64,000 nucleotides of DNA. Origin: Bordetella parapertussis (GTDB taxonomy: Bacteria > Pseudomonadota > Gammaproteobacteria > Burkholderiales > SG8-41). The position numbers and the translations under genes were made by a program. Below the pieces are notes generated by a model. That model saw nothing but the letters and a program-made list of their open reading frames with translations. It was not told the origin of the DNA and did not search any database. This document shows, piece by piece, positions 27,556-41,475 of the stretch (its first letter is position 1; each line of letters starts with the position of its first letter). The stretch lies in assembly GCA_945864585.1 (NCBI GenBank), contig CAMBCF010000002.1, forward strand, positions 31,570 through 95,569, in the 5' to 3' direction.

Positions 27556-28908
27556 TCACGGCGTCATTGCAGGATCAGGCGCGGCGGCTTGCACGAACCT
27601 GGCCGCATCGTCTAGATTGTCCAGTGACCAGGCGGTTTCGATCACCTGCCGCGCATCACATCCAGCACGCGAGAACGCTGCGAGCTGGTGAAATTTGTTT
27701 TCAAGCGCCGCATCGCTCATCGGCTTTTCGAGCGAGCCGGTGGCGTGAGGCACGTGAAGCGCGAGGCGGCGACCGTCCTTGAGCGTGATTTCAATATGGG
27801 CCTCGGCCTTGTCGCAGGCAGCGTCGGCTTGTGTCGAAACGCGGCTGCGCAGCGCGACGATGGCAGGTTCACGCACGCAGGCATCGGTAAACTGCGCAAT
27901 GCCTGCCGCGCCGTGCACCAGTGCCGCCGCTACCGCATGCGCCACCGACAGTTTGCCTTCGAGTCCGCTGGCCGGCGTCTCGCGGCCGGTGATTTCGAGC
28001 GCCAGCGGATTCATGCGCACCGCTACGCTGGCCACCGCGTCCGCGGCAAAGCCTGCCTCGGCGCGCAGTTGCAGGCAGGCGTCGATGGCGGCGTGCAGAA
28101 CAATCCCGCAGGGATAGGGCTTGTAGGCATTGGCCGCAAGTTCCCAGGTTTCACCGAGGCCGCGCGTGAGTTCATCCAGATCGGGTTGATTTCCGAGTAC
28201 CTGCGCGAAACCCCTGGGCGCTTCGAGACCCCGCTCGGAGCTGGTGAAGTTGCGTTCCGCCAGCAGCGCCGCGAGCAGACCACCGCGCGCCGCGTGGCCG
28301 AGGTTGTAGCTTTTGCCCATGCCGCCCATCATCTCGCGCAAGCCGCTGGCCTGGGTGGCGGCGAGCCCAAGCGCCCACGCGGTCTGCTGCGTGTTGAGAC
28401 CAAGCAGCCGGGCCGCCCCCGCAGCCGCGCCGAACACGCCGCAGGTCGACGAGATATGCCAGCCGTGCGCGTAATGCCACGGCGACACCGCGTTGCCAAC
28501 GCGGCAGCCAACTTCGATGCCGAGCACGAATGCCTGCAGGAACTGCGCGCCGGTGACCGGGCGATGCTCGGCGAGCGCGCACAGCGCAGCAGCCACCGGC
28601 ACCGTCGGATGCATCACCGCGCGCAGATGCGTATCGTCGTAGTCGAGGATGTTCGAAGCGATGCCGTTGATCAGCGCTGCGTGCAGCGGGTCGAGTTTTT
28701 CGCGGCGGCCGATCAGCGACGCCGTGCGCGGCCCGGAGAATTCGTTGAGCGCGGCGAGCGTGCGTTCCACCGTCTCGTCACGGCAACCGCCAAGTGCGCA
28801 ACCCATCCAGTTGAGCAACGCGCGCTTCGCCTCGTGACGCATCACCTGCGGGATGTCTTCCCAGCGGGACTCGGCGACGAAGCGCGCGAGAGTTTGTGTT
28901 TCGTGCAT
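27556..28908 (-). CDS. MmgE/PrpD family protein
   Basis: NILDYDDTHLRAVMHPTVPVAAALCALAEHRPVTG, TCGVFGAAAGAARLLGLNTQQTAWALGLAATQASGLREMMGGMGKSYNLGHAA. Confidence 0.96.
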   Translation of the reverse strand: MHETQTLARFVAESRWEDIPQVMRHEAKRALLNWMGCALGGCRDETVERTLAALNEFSGPRTASLIGRREKLDPLHAALINGIASNILDYDDTHLRAVMHPTVPVAAALCALAEHRPVTGAQFLQAFVLGIEVGCRVGNAVSPWHYAHGWHISSTCGVFGAAAGAARLLGLNTQQTAWALGLAATQASGLREMMGGMGKSYNLGHAARGGLLAALLAERNFTSSERGLEAPRGFAQVLGNQPDLDELTRGLGETWELAANAYKPYPCGIVLHAAIDACLQLRAEAGFAADAVASVAVRMNPLALEITGRETPASGLEGKLSVAHAVAAALVHGAAGIAQFTDACVREPAIVALRSRVSTQADAACDKAEAHIEITLKDGRRLALHVPHATGSLEKPMSDAALENKFHQLAAFSRAGCDARQVIETAWSLDNLDDAARFVQAAAPDPAMTP

Positions 28909-34970: not shown

Positions 34971-35012
34971 TTACCGCGCTCATATTGTGAGATTCAATCA
35001 AGGGTGAACACC

Positions 35013-35987
35013 ATGAACACATTTCGATTCGGCGTGGCGATTGCCGCACTCGCTTTTGGAGCCATCACTGCGCACCACGCTGCCGCGCAAAAGTATCCCG
35101 AGAAAACCGTGCGCATCGTCGTGCCGTTCACGCCGGGTGGCGGCACCGATGTGTTTGCGCGCATCCTCGGACAGCGCCTGTCCGAAGTCTACGGCCAGCA
35201 ATTCATCGTTGATAACCGTCCCGGCGCGGGTTCGACCATAGGCACCGAGTTCGTCGCGCGCGCCGCGGGCGATGGTTATACGCTGCTGATGACTTCGGCT
35301 TCGTTTTCCTTCACGCCGGGTCTTTATCCGAAGCTGCGCTACGACTCGCTCAGGGATTTCGCCGCGCTGTCGCAAGTGGTGCGCGTGCCGCATGTGATCA
35401 CAGTGCTGCCGTCGCTGCCGGTGAAAGATATTCAGGATTTTGTCCGCCTCGCGCGCGAACGGCCCGGCCAGGTGCTCTATGCCTCGGCGGGACCGGGGAG
35501 CGCCATGCATCTGGCGGGCGCGCTGTTTGCGGTGGTAACCAAAACACAACTTGGGCACGTGCCGTATAAGGGCGGCCCACAAACCGCGACCGCGGTGATG
35601 AGCGGCGAGGCCACGGTCGCGTTCAACACCCCGGAAACCGTGTTGGGCCTGATACGCGCAAAGCGGCTGCGGGCACTTGCGGTATCGACGCGCGAACGCG
35701 CAGCGGCGTTGCCCGAGGTGCCGACAGCGATTGAAGCCGGGTTCAGGGATTACGAAGCCGTCGGCTGGTTCGGCATGTTCGCGCCTTCCAACACGCCCGC
35801 AGCGGTAGTCGAACAGTTGAGCGGTGATATTGCGAAGGCGATGGCGACGCCGGCGATACGCGAGCGCGCCATGCAGGAAGGTGCGACGCCAGTCGGCAAC
35901 ACGCCGGCCCAGTTCGACCGTTTTGTGCGCGACGAAATCGCCAAATGGACGCGCATTATCCGCGACGCGGGTATCAAACTTGAATAA
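35013..35987 (+). CDS. Bug/TctC-family substrate-binding protein
   Basis: YPEKTVRIVVPFTPGGGTDVFARILGQRLSEVYGQQFIVDNRPGAGSTIGTEFVARAAGDGYTLLM. Confidence 0.96.
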   Translation: MNTFRFGVAIAALAFGAITAHHAAAQKYPEKTVRIVVPFTPGGGTDVFARILGQRLSEVYGQQFIVDNRPGAGSTIGTEFVARAAGDGYTLLMTSASFSFTPGLYPKLRYDSLRDFAALSQVVRVPHVITVLPSLPVKDIQDFVRLARERPGQVLYASAGPGSAMHLAGALFAVVTKTQLGHVPYKGGPQTATAVMSGEATVAFNTPETVLGLIRAKRLRALAVSTRERAAALPEVPTAIEAGFRDYEAVGWFGMFAPSNTPAAVVEQLSGDIAKAMATPAIRERAMQEGATPVGNTPAQFDRFVRDEIAKWTRIIRDAGIKLE

Positions 35988-36142: not shown

Positions 36143-37489
36143 ATGGGACAACAAATAGAGACGCTCGCGAGGTTTGCAGCAGAAACGCGCTGGGAAGACA
36201 TTCCCGCGCCGGTTCAGCGGCATACCAAACTGGTGTTGCTCGACACGCTCGGCGTCATTCTTGCGGGTTCAGTGCGGCCTGAAGTCGCACAGGTGCGCGA
36301 ACGATTGTCCGCCACTGCAGGCACGGGTGCTGCCGTGTATGCGCGCGGCTGGCCTACGCAAGACCCGCGCACCGCTGCGCTGCTCAACGGCATTGCCGGC
36401 CGCGCGATTGAATTGTGCGAAGGACTGCGTCTGGTCAGCGGTCAGGCCGCGATGCAAATTCTGCCCGGCATACTTTCGGTGGGCGAGCATGCGGGCGCGA
36501 GCGGCAAGACATTATTGACGGCGCTGGCGCTCGGCTACGATGTCACCGCGCGGCTGGGCATGGCATTTACGCCGCGTCCGCTGGCGCACCAGAATGGCCA
36601 AGCCATGTTGCTAGCCGCTGCCGCCGCAGGTGCGCGCATGCGCGGGCTCGACGCGGCGGGCGTGAGCCGCGCCATGCGTATTTCAGCGGTGCTGATGATG
36701 ACGCCCAGCTACATGAATACCGGCGCAGGCGCGACGGCGCTCAATATCGCCGGCGGCATGAGCGGATTTGCCGGTGCGTTGGCGCCCGATCTCGCACTGG
36801 CCGGCATCGAGGCGCAGGAAAATGCGATTGAAGAAGCGTTAAGCCAGCTGGTTGGTGACGGCTTTAATCCCGACCATCTGCTCGACGCACTCGGCACACG
36901 CTGGGAAATCATGCGCAATTATTTCTGCCTGTATGCGTGCTGCAATCCGATTCATCCCGCGCTCGATGTATTGAAAGCTGCACTCGCCGAGTTGCGTCCG
37001 CGCGCAGAGGAGATCGAGCGCATCGAGTTTGCGACCTATCGCTTTGCGTCGGTGATGCGCAATCCCAATCCGCCAAATTATTTTGCCTCGAAGTATTCGC
37101 TGCCGCACGCGGCGGCGGTGATGGTAGTCAGGGGCAAGGCGGAGCACAGTGACATCGACGACAGTGCGTTGCTCGATCCGGCGATAACTGCGCTGCGACA
37201 GCGTGTGCACGTCGCCGAAGATCCGGCAATGAGTGCGCTCGCGCCGCGCCTGCGCCCCGCGCGGGTTACCGTGACTTTAAAGGATGGGCGCAAGGCCACG
37301 CACGCCTGCGAGAGTCACGAAGGCGACTTCAATCGGCCGTACCCGGAATCGGTACTGCGCGGCAAGTTTCGTATGTTGGCCGGCTACGTGCTTACGCCTG
37401 AAGGCGTGACCCAGGCCGAACAAGCGGTAGACCGTAGCGAGGAATGGAGCAGCGTGGCAGAATTCACGGCGCTGCTACGCATGACATAA
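36143..37489 (+). CDS. MmgE/PrpD family protein
   Basis: ETLARFAAETRWEDIPAPVQRHTKLVLLDTLGVILAGS, LLNGIAGRAIELCEG, YFASKYSLPHAAAVMVV. Confidence 0.95.
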   Translation: MGQQIETLARFAAETRWEDIPAPVQRHTKLVLLDTLGVILAGSVRPEVAQVRERLSATAGTGAAVYARGWPTQDPRTAALLNGIAGRAIELCEGLRLVSGQAAMQILPGILSVGEHAGASGKTLLTALALGYDVTARLGMAFTPRPLAHQNGQAMLLAAAAAGARMRGLDAAGVSRAMRISAVLMMTPSYMNTGAGATALNIAGGMSGFAGALAPDLALAGIEAQENAIEEALSQLVGDGFNPDHLLDALGTRWEIMRNYFCLYACCNPIHPALDVLKAALAELRPRAEEIERIEFATYRFASVMRNPNPPNYFASKYSLPHAAAVMVVRGKAEHSDIDDSALLDPAITALRQRVHVAEDPAMSALAPRLRPARVTVTLKDGRKATHACESHEGDFNRPYPESVLRGKFRMLAGYVLTPEGVTQAEQAVDRSEEWSSVAEFTALLRMT

Positions 37490-37516: not shown

Positions 37517-38944
37517 ATGTTCGACTTAGTGATTCGCAGTGACAAAATAGTGACGCCTTCAGGCGTCACCGCGTGTGACCTGGCGATTCAGGGCGAGAAG
37601 ATTGTGGCGCTGGGCGCTGCCGGTTCATTCGGCGCGGAGAGTGCCAGGCGTGTGATCGACGCCACCGGCAAAATCGTCATGCCCGGCGGCATTGATCCGC
37701 ACGTGCATCTGAAGTGGTACTCGCCGCATCCCGACGGTAGCGTGACCTACACCGATCCGCCGTCGGTGGTGGGCCGCGCCGCGTTGTATGGCGGCACCAC
37801 CACCATGATCGACTTCGTGCGCTGGACGCATGGCAAGACCATACAGCAGGCGATCGAAGACCGGCACAAGGACTGGACCGGCCAGTGTCAGTGCGACTAC
37901 AGTTTTCACGTGATGGTCGAGGGCGCGCTGCCACCGGAGATTTTCGGGCAGCTTGCCGAAGTGCTGCGTGCGGGTTATCCGACGGTGAAGCTGTTTACCA
38001 CCGACATCACGCCAAGCCGGCGCGGGCGCATGGTTGATTTCGGCGACATCTGGGAGGTGTTCAAGGTGGTCGCGCAGGAGCACGGCCTGTGCGTCATCCA
38101 CGGCGAGGACAACGACATCGTGATGCACATGTACGACAAACTCATACGCGAAAACCGCACAGGCTTCGAGAATATGGCCGAGGTGCATAACGCCATGTCC
38201 GAAGACCTGTCGTTTCGCCGCGTGTTGGGGCTGGCTAAAAATGTGCCGGGCATCGCGCTCTACTTCATGCATGTGAGTGCTGCGTTCGGCGTGGATGCAA
38301 TACGCGAAGCGCGCGCACGCGGCATGCCGGTGTACGGCGAAACGCTGCATCAATACCTGATGTATACCTCGGAAGATTACAAGCGCCCGAACGGCCAGAT
38401 GTATCACACCTATCCGTCGATCAAGGCGCAGGCCGATCAGAACGCGCTGTGGGCCGGCACGCTCGACCACACCATTCATACGGTGGCGACCGACGAGGTT
38501 TGCTGTTCGCTGAAAGACAAGACCCTGGGCAAGCGCATCGATGACACCACCGGTGGTAACGTCGGGGTGGAGCCGCGTGTGTCGCTGATGTATTCCGAGA
38601 TGGTGGGCCGGCGCGGTTACTCGCTCGAACGTTTCGTCGATCTCATCTCCAGCAATGCGGCAAAAATCATGGGGTTGTATCCGCGCAAAGGCGCGCTTGC
38701 GGTGGGTTCCGACGCCGACATCACCGTGCTGGATGCGTCGCGGCGCTTCACGCTGACCAAAGAGATGCTGCACGAATCCGATTATTCACCGTGGGAAGGG
38801 CACGAAATGCTGGCGTGGCCCTCGACCACGGTGCTGCGCGGCAAGGTGGTGGTTGATGGCGGGCAGTTCTTCGGCGACCTGAAGGACGGCAGGTTTCTGC
38901 CGCGCAAAATTTCCGAAGAAATCCGCAGCGGCGCCATGCTGTGA
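37517..38944 (+). CDS. D-hydantoinase/dihydropyrimidinase-family cyclic amidohydrolase
   Basis: GIDPHVHL metal motif, TVKLFT (candidate carboxylated Lys), HGEDNDI, TLHQYLMYTSEDY, ATDEV with conserved Asp. Confidence 0.94.
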   Translation: MFDLVIRSDKIVTPSGVTACDLAIQGEKIVALGAAGSFGAESARRVIDATGKIVMPGGIDPHVHLKWYSPHPDGSVTYTDPPSVVGRAALYGGTTTMIDFVRWTHGKTIQQAIEDRHKDWTGQCQCDYSFHVMVEGALPPEIFGQLAEVLRAGYPTVKLFTTDITPSRRGRMVDFGDIWEVFKVVAQEHGLCVIHGEDNDIVMHMYDKLIRENRTGFENMAEVHNAMSEDLSFRRVLGLAKNVPGIALYFMHVSAAFGVDAIREARARGMPVYGETLHQYLMYTSEDYKRPNGQMYHTYPSIKAQADQNALWAGTLDHTIHTVATDEVCCSLKDKTLGKRIDDTTGGNVGVEPRVSLMYSEMVGRRGYSLERFVDLISSNAAKIMGLYPRKGALAVGSDADITVLDASRRFTLTKEMLHESDYSPWEGHEMLAWPSTTVLRGKVVVDGGQFFGDLKDGRFLPRKISEEIRSGAML

Positions 38945-39288
38945 GCGGAATACCTGCTGCCGCCGAAGAGGAACGATTGCGCGTTTTTCTCGCCGACAGT
39001 CTTGCGCTATGGCAAGTCGGCGGCACCGTTCAAGCAGGAGACGCGCCGGTCGTTGCGGAGATCCGCGCCAGCAACGGCGCCCTCGTGTGGATCGAGCGCG
39101 CTGCTGATGACACGCCGTTTCGCTGGTGCGCACGCTGGCGCAGTGCGGGAGCTGCGCCCGGCGGCGTGCGTGAGTTGCGGCCACGCGCTTGTGGTTCGCT
39201 GGTGGGGTTGCTCGCTGCGGTGCGCGATGCGCTGGGCGTGGAACGCGGCGCCGCGGTGCGGGTTGTGGCGGCGCCGGAGCAAACATGA
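38941..39288 (+). CDS. Uncharacterised ~115-aa protein between hydantoinase and CobW-like GTPase
   Basis: GTG start overlaps the hydantoinase stop (gtga), and its TGA overlaps the GTPase ATG (atga). ALWQVGGTVQAGDAPVVAEIRASNGALVWIERAADDTPFRWCARWRS. Confidence 0.75.
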   Translation: MSGIPAAAEEERLRVFLADSLALWQVGGTVQAGDAPVVAEIRASNGALVWIERAADDTPFRWCARWRSAGAAPGGVRELRPRACGSLVGLLAAVRDALGVERGAAVRVVAAPEQT

Positions 39289-40346
39289 TCCCCGTGTCGG
39301 TCATCACCGGCTTTCTCGGCAGCGGCAAAACCACCTTGCTGGGTCGCCTGCTGCGCGATCCGGCGATGGGCCGCACCGCGGTCATCATCAACGAGTTTGG
39401 CGCAATTGCGCTGGATCACGATCTGATCGAGACCAGCGACGAGAGTTTTGTCCAGCTCACCAACGGATGTTTGTGCTGCAACGTGCGCAGCGATCTCACG
39501 CTCACACTCGGTGACCTTGCAGCGCGGCGCGCGCAGGGTACGCTGCCGTGGTTCGAGCGCGTGGTCATCGAAACCAGCGGTCTGGCCGACCCCGCGCCGA
39601 TACTGCACGCGCTAATGACCAACCGCGATCTCAGCGGCACCTACGCGCTCGACAGTGTGATTACCACCGTCGATGCGCTGCTGGGCATGGCGGCACTCGA
39701 CAATCACGAAGAAGCGCGGCGTCAGGCCGCGGTTGCCGACCGTATCGTGATGACCAAGACCGATCTTGCCGAGGCGCAAACGGACGCCATCCGGCAGCGG
39801 CTTGCCGCCATCAATCCGGGCGCACCTGTGATTACCGCCGTGCGCGGCGCGATTGCGCCATCCGTATTATTCAATTGCGGGTTCTATGATGTAGACAGCA
39901 AGCATCCCGACGTGGGCGTATGGCTCGCTCACAATGCCGTCGATGGCGCCGATGCCGCAGGCGGGCACGCACATTCTCTGCATCACCATGCTGAACCTGT
40001 CACCAGTTTTTGCATTGTGCGTGAACAACCGCTGCACGCGGTGACGCTGCCGCTGCTGCTGTCGGCGCTGGCGGAAAACTGCGGCGCGGATTTATGGCGC
40101 ATGAAAGGTATCGTGCGCGTGCTCGAAGCACCGGAGCGCCCTGCCGTGATCCACGGCGTGCAGCATGTTTATCACGCACCGGTGTGGTTGCCGCGCTGGC
40201 CTTCGGCAGAGCGCAGCACGCGCATGGTGTTCATCGGCCGCAACCTGCGTGAATCCTGGGTGCGCAGCCTGATCGAACTACTGGATGCGGAAGTCGCCGC
40301 GGAAAGCGCGCGGCGTCCGCGGGTGACCGCACCTACTTCAAGCTGA
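39285..40346 (+). CDS. CobW/G3E-family GTPase (COG0523), putative metallochaperone
   Basis: VITGFLGSGKTTLLGRLL Walker A, NEFGAIALDHDLIE, GCLCCNVRSDL (CxCC), ETSGLADPAPI, His-rich GGHAHSLHHHAEP. Confidence 0.95.
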   Translation: MIPVSVITGFLGSGKTTLLGRLLRDPAMGRTAVIINEFGAIALDHDLIETSDESFVQLTNGCLCCNVRSDLTLTLGDLAARRAQGTLPWFERVVIETSGLADPAPILHALMTNRDLSGTYALDSVITTVDALLGMAALDNHEEARRQAAVADRIVMTKTDLAEAQTDAIRQRLAAINPGAPVITAVRGAIAPSVLFNCGFYDVDSKHPDVGVWLAHNAVDGADAAGGHAHSLHHHAEPVTSFCIVREQPLHAVTLPLLLSALAENCGADLWRMKGIVRVLEAPERPAVIHGVQHVYHAPVWLPRWPSAERSTRMVFIGRNLRESWVRSLIELLDAEVAAESARRPRVTAPTSS

Positions 40347-41349
40347 CCGGCCTGATCGCCACGCCATCCAGCGTGATGCGCTGATTTACCAGATTCGCGC
40401 ACGCCGCGATCACCGCCAGATTCGGCGTTGCCACAGAGGTGAGCTCGCCGATTTCCAGCAGCACGTTGAGGATGGCGTCAAGTTCCAGCGAGCGGCCCGC
40501 GCGCACGTCCTGCAAGGTCGAAGTCGCCAGCGACACGCGCCTGGCCGCCGCCGCCACCAGCGCTTCCGCATCGGCTTGCAGCGGGCTGCCCACCGCGGCG
40601 GCCAGCGCAATCACTTCACGCGTCATGGCCACCGCCAATCGTGCCATCGGCTCGAAGCCGGCGGCTTCTTTTGGCGTCGCCTGCGTGACCACCCCCAGCG
40701 TGTTCCACACCGCATTCGACAGGAGCTTGGTCCATTTGGCTTTGCGTATATCCGCCACCGGCGTACCGCGCCATCCGGCACGGGTGGTGATGTTTGCGAT
40801 TTGTTCCAGGCGCGGCGTCATGCGATTGTCGATTTCACCCAGAGCGAGGGCATCCCCATCGGAATCCGCCAGACGAATATGGCCGGGCGCCAGCAGATCG
40901 GTGGGCTTGAACGCGATGCCCCCGATGATATGGGATGCATCAAACGTGCGCGACAATACGCCGTCGGGATCGAGTGTCTTCAGTTTCGTGCCCTTAAAGC
41001 GCGACTCGATGCCGTCGAAATACCACCACGGTATGCCGTTCTGCGGAAACACGAACATCGCGTCTCTGCCGCCCAGTGCGCGCACATGTTGCGCGGCGGA
41101 CATCAGCTGATGTGATTTCAGGGTGACAAATATCAGCTCGTACGGCGGCTTTTCTTCTCCGGGGCGCACCGCGCGCACCTTGATCGGATCGGGCCTCCCG
41201 CTTTTGGGACCTTCGAGCATAACGCCGCGCGTGGTGTAGGCCTCATACGCCGCGCCACGCGCCACCAGCGTTACATCTTCGCCCGCCGCCGACAAAATCG
41301 CGCCCAGATAACCGCCGACAGAGCCGGCGCCATAGACCAGAATTTTCAC
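40333..41349 (-). CDS. 2-dehydropantoate 2-reductase family (ApbA/PanE-like)
   Basis: GTG start; VKILVYGAGSVGGYLGAILSAAGEDVTLVARGAAYEAYTTRGVML, KWTKLLSNAVWNTLGVVTQA. Confidence 0.93.
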   Translation of the reverse strand: MKILVYGAGSVGGYLGAILSAAGEDVTLVARGAAYEAYTTRGVMLEGPKSGRPDPIKVRAVRPGEEKPPYELIFVTLKSHQLMSAAQHVRALGGRDAMFVFPQNGIPWWYFDGIESRFKGTKLKTLDPDGVLSRTFDASHIIGGIAFKPTDLLAPGHIRLADSDGDALALGEIDNRMTPRLEQIANITTRAGWRGTPVADIRKAKWTKLLSNAVWNTLGVVTQATPKEAAGFEPMARLAVAMTREVIALAAAVGSPLQADAEALVAAAARRVSLATSTLQDVRAGRSLELDAILNVLLEIGELTSVATPNLAVIAACANLVNQRITLDGVAIRPVSLK

Positions 41350-41475
41350 TTGAAACCTCTCACACAAAAACTTTTTTTGCCACAGATGAACACAGATGAA
41401 CACAGATTAACTTCAACAGCAGTCGCAGGATGCACCAGTTTGCGAACCTCAACACGCGATCCTGAGTCTCTATTC

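Follow-up and report, generated by a model that had tools for sequence, protein, structure and literature searches.

The clients of most COG0523 GTPases are an open problem (PMC9164220). Within the 64,000-nucleotide stretch of DNA analysed here (the window), a gene of this family follows genes for a hydantoinase-like amidohydrolase (HYD) and for a 115-residue protein (ORF115), and we ask whether the GTPase and ORF115 serve the enzyme. We propose, with confidence slightly above even, that together they constitute a dedicated maturation module for HYD, as the representative of a distinct hydantoinase-like amidohydrolase subfamily.

Organization of the locus

HYD, ORF115 and the GTPase gene occupy 2.8 kb of the + strand (37517-40346), are coupled by GTGA and ATGA overlaps, and close a + strand run that includes TctC-type and MmgE/PrpD genes upstream (Table 1). 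The three genes and their overlaps, as described in an earlier note on this DNA, are borne out to the exact position. A TctC gene is also found upstream of HYD in many betaproteobacterial loci, and an MmgE/PrpD neighbour in most of the loci L005-L018. More broadly, the window is dense in MmgE/PrpD (at least five) and TctC (at least four) genes between positions 27556 and 48614, some of them as adjacent pairs.

Table 1. Genes of the unit and its immediate surroundings in the window
Feature	Coordinates	Strand	Remarks
TctC-type tricarboxylate-binding protein	35004..35987	+	PF03401, 234.7 bits; same + strand run, upstream
MmgE/PrpD family protein	36143..37489	+	PF03972 and PF19305; 27 bases upstream of HYD
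HYD, hydantoinase-like amidohydrolase	37517..38944	+	475 aa, ATG start; Pfam Amidohydro_1/3
ORF115	38941..39288	+	115 aa, GTG start; start overlaps HYD stop as GTGA
COG0523/G3E GTPase	39285..40346	+	353 aa, ATG start; overlap with ORF115 is ATGA
Ketopantoate-reductase-like gene	40333..41403	-	converges on the triad from the other side

No Zur-type palindrome exceeded chance in the window, and we accordingly rejected a Zur-controlled zinc-starvation operon. An Rfam search matched no RNA element, promoter and terminator scans gave no signal above shuffled sequences, and we found no plasmid copy of the unit.

Properties of the three proteins

HYD is an amidohydrolase closest to D-hydantoinases (PDB 1nfg, 226 bits): it belongs to their fold family and retains each of the six metal ligands. 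These binuclear-metal ligands (H62, H64, K158, H195, H252 and D326) are invariant in 81/81 sequences, and K158 is the predicted carboxylated Lys of the binuclear site. HYD nevertheless misses the cut-off of the D-hydantoinase/dihydropyrimidinase model TIGR02033 (313.3 versus 393.25 bits) and carries KLFTTDITPSRRGRMVD where D-hydantoinase has KVFMAY, as well as TDExCC where D-hydantoinase has SDHxP. The gate-loop Tyr, five residues past the Lys, is absent: the window protein reads K158-LFTTD, T161 and T162 are invariant, and position 163 is Asp or Asn among the 81 sequences, in a loop whose TT-x(3)-P pattern is invariant. The D-hydantoinase controls L155, L160 and L162 have K-xxxx-Y. Since HYD falls below the D-hydantoinase cut-off and lacks the gate Tyr, we take 'hydantoinase' to denote its fold and not its activity; as the substrate label used in the earlier note, the term is probably wrong. 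C329-C330 is invariant and directly follows D326-E327-x, beside the metal Asp; C65, adjoining H64, is Cys in 64 of the 81 sequences and Leu in the window.

Two HYD paralogues of 55-57% identity (L183:3002-4408 and L184:9756-11162) have neither an ORF115 nor a GTPase of their own. Their sequence reads TDGICTP where HYD has TDExCC, so that the second Cys is missing. As the paralogues without partners are also those without the second Cys, the Cys pair may distinguish the subfamily that is linked in the triad.

The GTPase is a member of the COG0523/CobW G3E family, passing the cut-offs of both cobW (161.7 bits, cut-off 20.7) and CobW_C (67.8 bits, cut-off 22), and as such would bind metal and have metal-dependent GTPase activity. 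Its Walker A motif is GFLGSGKTT and its CxCC motif is CLCC (GCLCC in the window), which is kept in every relative examined with the sole exception of a partial HSP from a broken gene. All named COG0523 equivalog cut-offs were missed (YjiA PRK11537, 195.6 versus 361; CobW, 134.8 versus 332.1; ZigA, 106 versus 600). Escherichia coli YjiA (COG0523; PDB 1nij, 4ixm) is the nearest solved relative at 152 bits; the match spans the whole window GTPase, which differs from YjiA in missing the PRK11537 cut-off and in its His-rich loop, absent from YjiA in the alignment. This loop (GGHAHSLHHHAEP, 8 His) and the GCLCC motif are both present as first described. The loop is not conserved, however, with 1-3 His in many alphaproteobacterial relatives, and we rejected it as a functional hallmark; it is weak evidence, and its lack of conservation counts against the module. 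In the window genome (G000), contig C61 (L003, L004) encodes a COG0523 paralogue and, after it, the C-terminal 107 residues of this paralogue a second time in near-identical form, so that the gene is partially duplicated in tandem.

ORF115 is a new small α/β family, absent from every library searched: the window protein matched nothing in Pfam, NCBIfam or the PDB sequences, and 70 aligned members gave nothing consistent against Pfam, PHROGs and the PDB, the only good Pfam score being an isolated Secretin_N match in 1 of the 70. The presence of homologues beside HYD in 70/80 loci, together with purifying selection (dN/dS 0.11-0.16 against five relatives), identifies it as a real gene. W24 and W62 are invariant; His is lacking, and no Cys is conserved. 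ORF115 is therefore probably not a metal carrier, a role we set aside, and an adaptor fits better.

AlphaFold models of ORF115 from two different seed members (pLDDT 87.5 and 91.1) are mutually consistent and predict with confidence an α/β sandwich of a helix, approximately five strands and a helix. Foldseek returned no significant match to the PDB for either model; among the non-significant fold matches of the second model, frataxins account for 7 of the top 11 (best frataxin match: probability 0.85, TM 0.52/0.46, E 0.27). The order of secondary-structure elements in the predicted fold resembles frataxin/CyaY, from which ORF115 differs in that no fold match has an E-value better than 0.2 or a TM above ~0.5, and in that an acidic ridge is not evident. 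No ORF115 member matched PF01491, and aligning the ORF115 profile with ~21 CyaY sequences of the order using hhalign gave a probability of 0.3%, which leaves homology to frataxin unsupported. The modelled frataxin-like fold thus stays a lead and not a classification. Of 41 genomes sampled from the order, 23 have a match to frataxin/CyaY (PF01491) itself; the window genome and the triad genomes G005 and G012 have none.

Genomic linkage of the triad

Each of the three proteins was used to search one set of 300 genomes from the order. HYD relatives of at least 68% identity occur in 15 genomes, and ORF115 (E < 1e-4) in the same 15. GTPases of at least 56% identity are likewise present in the 15 HYD genomes and in 0 of the 285 others, where paralogues reach only ~40-50% identity (one partial match, 53%). 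Thirteen of the 15 carry the three genes contiguously, and in the remaining two (G104, G263) the genes lie on separate contigs, at contig ends. Neither HYD nor the GTPase adjoins the five further ORF115 matches (E 2e-4 to 9e-4; L100-L104). If genomes were independent, co-occurrence in the same 15 would have a chance of about 1 in 1e25. These genomes represent three genera, however, which counts against the module and makes a wider GTDB comparison the better argument. A phylum-wide ORF115 scan (399 genomes, 12 candidates scored per genome) yielded only the window copy and three marginal partial matches, which is weak evidence of absence.

For the wider set we took 80 HYD loci of beta- and alphaproteobacteria in GTDB (65-98% identity) and scanned them with an iterated ORF115 profile. 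ORF115 lies within ~2.5 kb of HYD on the same strand in 70 loci, and 47 have the GTPase within 2.6 kb. The complete triad is present in 46, in the order HYD-ORF115-GTPase (41 loci) or ORF115-GTPase-HYD (5 loci); in L081, one of these five, the ORF115 match is marginal, and a second profile found none in its genome. The triad is thus scattered over beta- and alphaproteobacteria. Co-conservation of ORF115 and the GTPase with HYD, on which the earlier note had staked its proposal, is strongly supported by the identical 15/300 genomes and by the 70/80 and 46/80 loci. The closest public relatives (L005, L006, L010, L012 and L013) come from metagenome-assembled genomes titled Bordetella parapertussis; their sequence and gene order are like those of uncultured Betaproteobacteria, and the names look like misassignments.

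Ten of the 80 loci have no nearby ORF115. Two of them stop at a contig end, with ORF115 elsewhere in both genomes (L020, L035); three are additional HYD copies whose genomes also carry a complete triad (L025, L028, L031); one has ORF115 3.7 kb from HYD (L056); and two belong to genomes with an ORF115-GTPase pair elsewhere (L040 and L057; pairs L105 and L106). For L074 and L042 (genomes G329 and G302), a genome-wide ORF115 search found none. The HYD genomes G302, G329 and G332, in which ORF115 has no significant match, count against a maturation module.

A further point against such a module is that ~24 loci, mostly from Acetobacteraceae, have HYD and ORF115 without an adjacent GTPase; in five of these little or no contig remains downstream. 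All 29 searched genomes with HYD but no directly adjacent GTPase encode a GTPase relative elsewhere. Most of the non-adjacent Acetobacteraceae GTPases form a clade nested with the linked GTPases (support 99/98) and apart from the two paralogues of the window genome, and in L071 a GTPase of this type lies ~2.5 kb from HYD. We read the nesting as relocation of an orthologue, with the reservation that the tree root is arbitrary. On the HYD tree, the GTPase-adjacency label changes 6 times, as opposed to 21.7 for shuffles.

Eleven D-hydantoinases above the TIGR02033 cut-off (L153-L163) have neither ORF115 nor the GTPase within ~1.5 kb. These controls and the partnerless L183/L184 paralogues indicate that the coupling is a property of the HYD subfamily, in which it differs from D-hydantoinase. 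Elsewhere, on contig C80 of G059 (L188:1389-3769), another COG0523 GTPase gene is overlapped at its end by a gene for a different hydantoinase/allantoinase-like amidohydrolase (462 aa). This pair lies behind an apparent LysR-type gene and lacks ORF115; the two families appear to have been paired independently there.

A candidate maturation module and its relation to known systems

From the genes and their linkage, we infer a HYD-ORF115-GTPase complex in which metal is transferred. The GTPase would carry metal at its CxCC site, ORF115 would dock the metal-holding GTPase on apo-HYD, and GTP hydrolysis would drive delivery to the binuclear site (H62, H64, carboxylated K158, H195, H252 and D326). 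As an alternative to delivery, the GTPase may help to assemble the site, including Lys carboxylation. The docking role is proposed by analogy, since a client, a G3E GTPase and a small adaptor make up a urease-like parts list. Ordinary hydantoinases of the HYD fold have no known need of a metallochaperone, which counts against the module.

The position of ORF115 bears directly on this proposal. Same-frame ORF115-GTPase fusions joined by Pro/Ala-rich linkers occur in Burkholderiales (L023, L091/L092) and alphaproteobacteria (L052, L083); in L083 the stretch from the end of ORF115 to Walker A offers a single possible start codon, one residue ahead of the Walker A match. ORF115 also lies beside the GTPase without HYD (L105, L106). 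Its role as a bridge between HYD and the GTPase is strongly supported, and the linking function first suggested for it gains from these fusions. An alternative, which we consider rather unlikely, is that ORF115 is a permanent small subunit that stabilises or regulates HYD, the GTPase being a separate helper such as a zinc allocator for the operon. HYD is indeed tied more tightly to ORF115 (70/80 loci) than to the GTPase (47/80), but ORF115 forms fusions with the GTPase in two lineages and stays beside it when both leave HYD, whereas no HYD-ORF115 fusion was found among the loci scanned.

It is highly improbable, in our judgement, that the three are merely co-transcribed genes of a catabolic operon in which the GTPase acts in general zinc homeostasis and has no client. 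Catabolic-looking neighbours (TctC, PrpD, amidase, asparaginase) and the link of a subset of COG0523 proteins to zinc homeostasis (PMC2770081) speak for that explanation. HYD, ORF115 and the GTPase nevertheless persist across lineages in which the other neighbours (TctC, PrpD, amidase, DAO-type oxidase, asparaginase, HpcH aldolase, molybdenum hydroxylase) vary; the two gene orders, the ORF115-GTPase fusions and the lack of a Zur-type palindrome above chance also argue against it. The same genomic data equally fit a device for repair or metal exchange after assembly, with the GTPase and ORF115 reactivating HYD following metal loss, mis-loading or loss of the Lys carboxylate, and relocation of the GTPase in Acetobacteraceae implies that co-translation is not essential. 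Nothing specific opposes this reading, which genome data cannot separate from first-time insertion; we regard it as improbable. Also distinctly unlikely is a bolder version of the maturation proposal, in which ORF115 is a frataxin-fold adaptor that assembles with the COG0523 GTPase an unusual metal centre, perhaps not zinc, with the invariant Cys-Cys nearby; the urease superfamily would then contain two GTPase-driven maturation systems of independent evolutionary origin.

We thus favour a dedicated maturation module, and the triad suggests a purpose-built metal-loading system for HYD. It names a client and an adaptor for a COG0523 GTPase by strong genomic linkage, and its three genes in 2.8 kb are small enough for direct expression and testing. 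No relevant pairing of a COG0523/CobW GTPase with a hydantoinase or dihydropyrimidinase occurs in the titles and abstracts searched; the main 2021 COG0523 review may mention one. Pairs of a COG0523 protein and a client are known as such. As far as the literature searched shows, novelty lies in the client class, in the ORF115 family and in the ORF115-GTPase fusion.

The COG0523 protein Nha3 is a known maturase of Fe-type nitrile hydratase (PMC9164220). Like the window GTPase, it is encoded with a metalloenzyme, and it is dedicated to that one enzyme, as we propose for the window GTPase; the window differs in its putative client, an amidohydrolase, and in the extra conserved small protein. Within the amidohydrolase superfamily, urease has a binuclear site that includes a carboxylated Lys, and it is matured by a G3E GTPase with adaptors. 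That GTPase is UreG (PMC9164220). The locus described here differs from a UreG-type GTPase with UreF/UreD homologues: its GTPase is of the COG0523 type (CxCC, cobW and CobW_C) and not UreG, ORF115 has no Pfam match, is a predicted α/β sandwich and has no relative among PDB chains in sequence searches, and the proposed client is hydantoinase-like. The likeness to urease maturation (UreG, UreF/UreD(H)) is that a binuclear amidohydrolase-superfamily enzyme, whose carboxylated Lys is, in HYD, predicted, is encoded together with a small partner and a G3E GTPase. If our proposal is true, GTPase-driven maturation would extend from urease to another carboxylated-Lys amidohydrolase.
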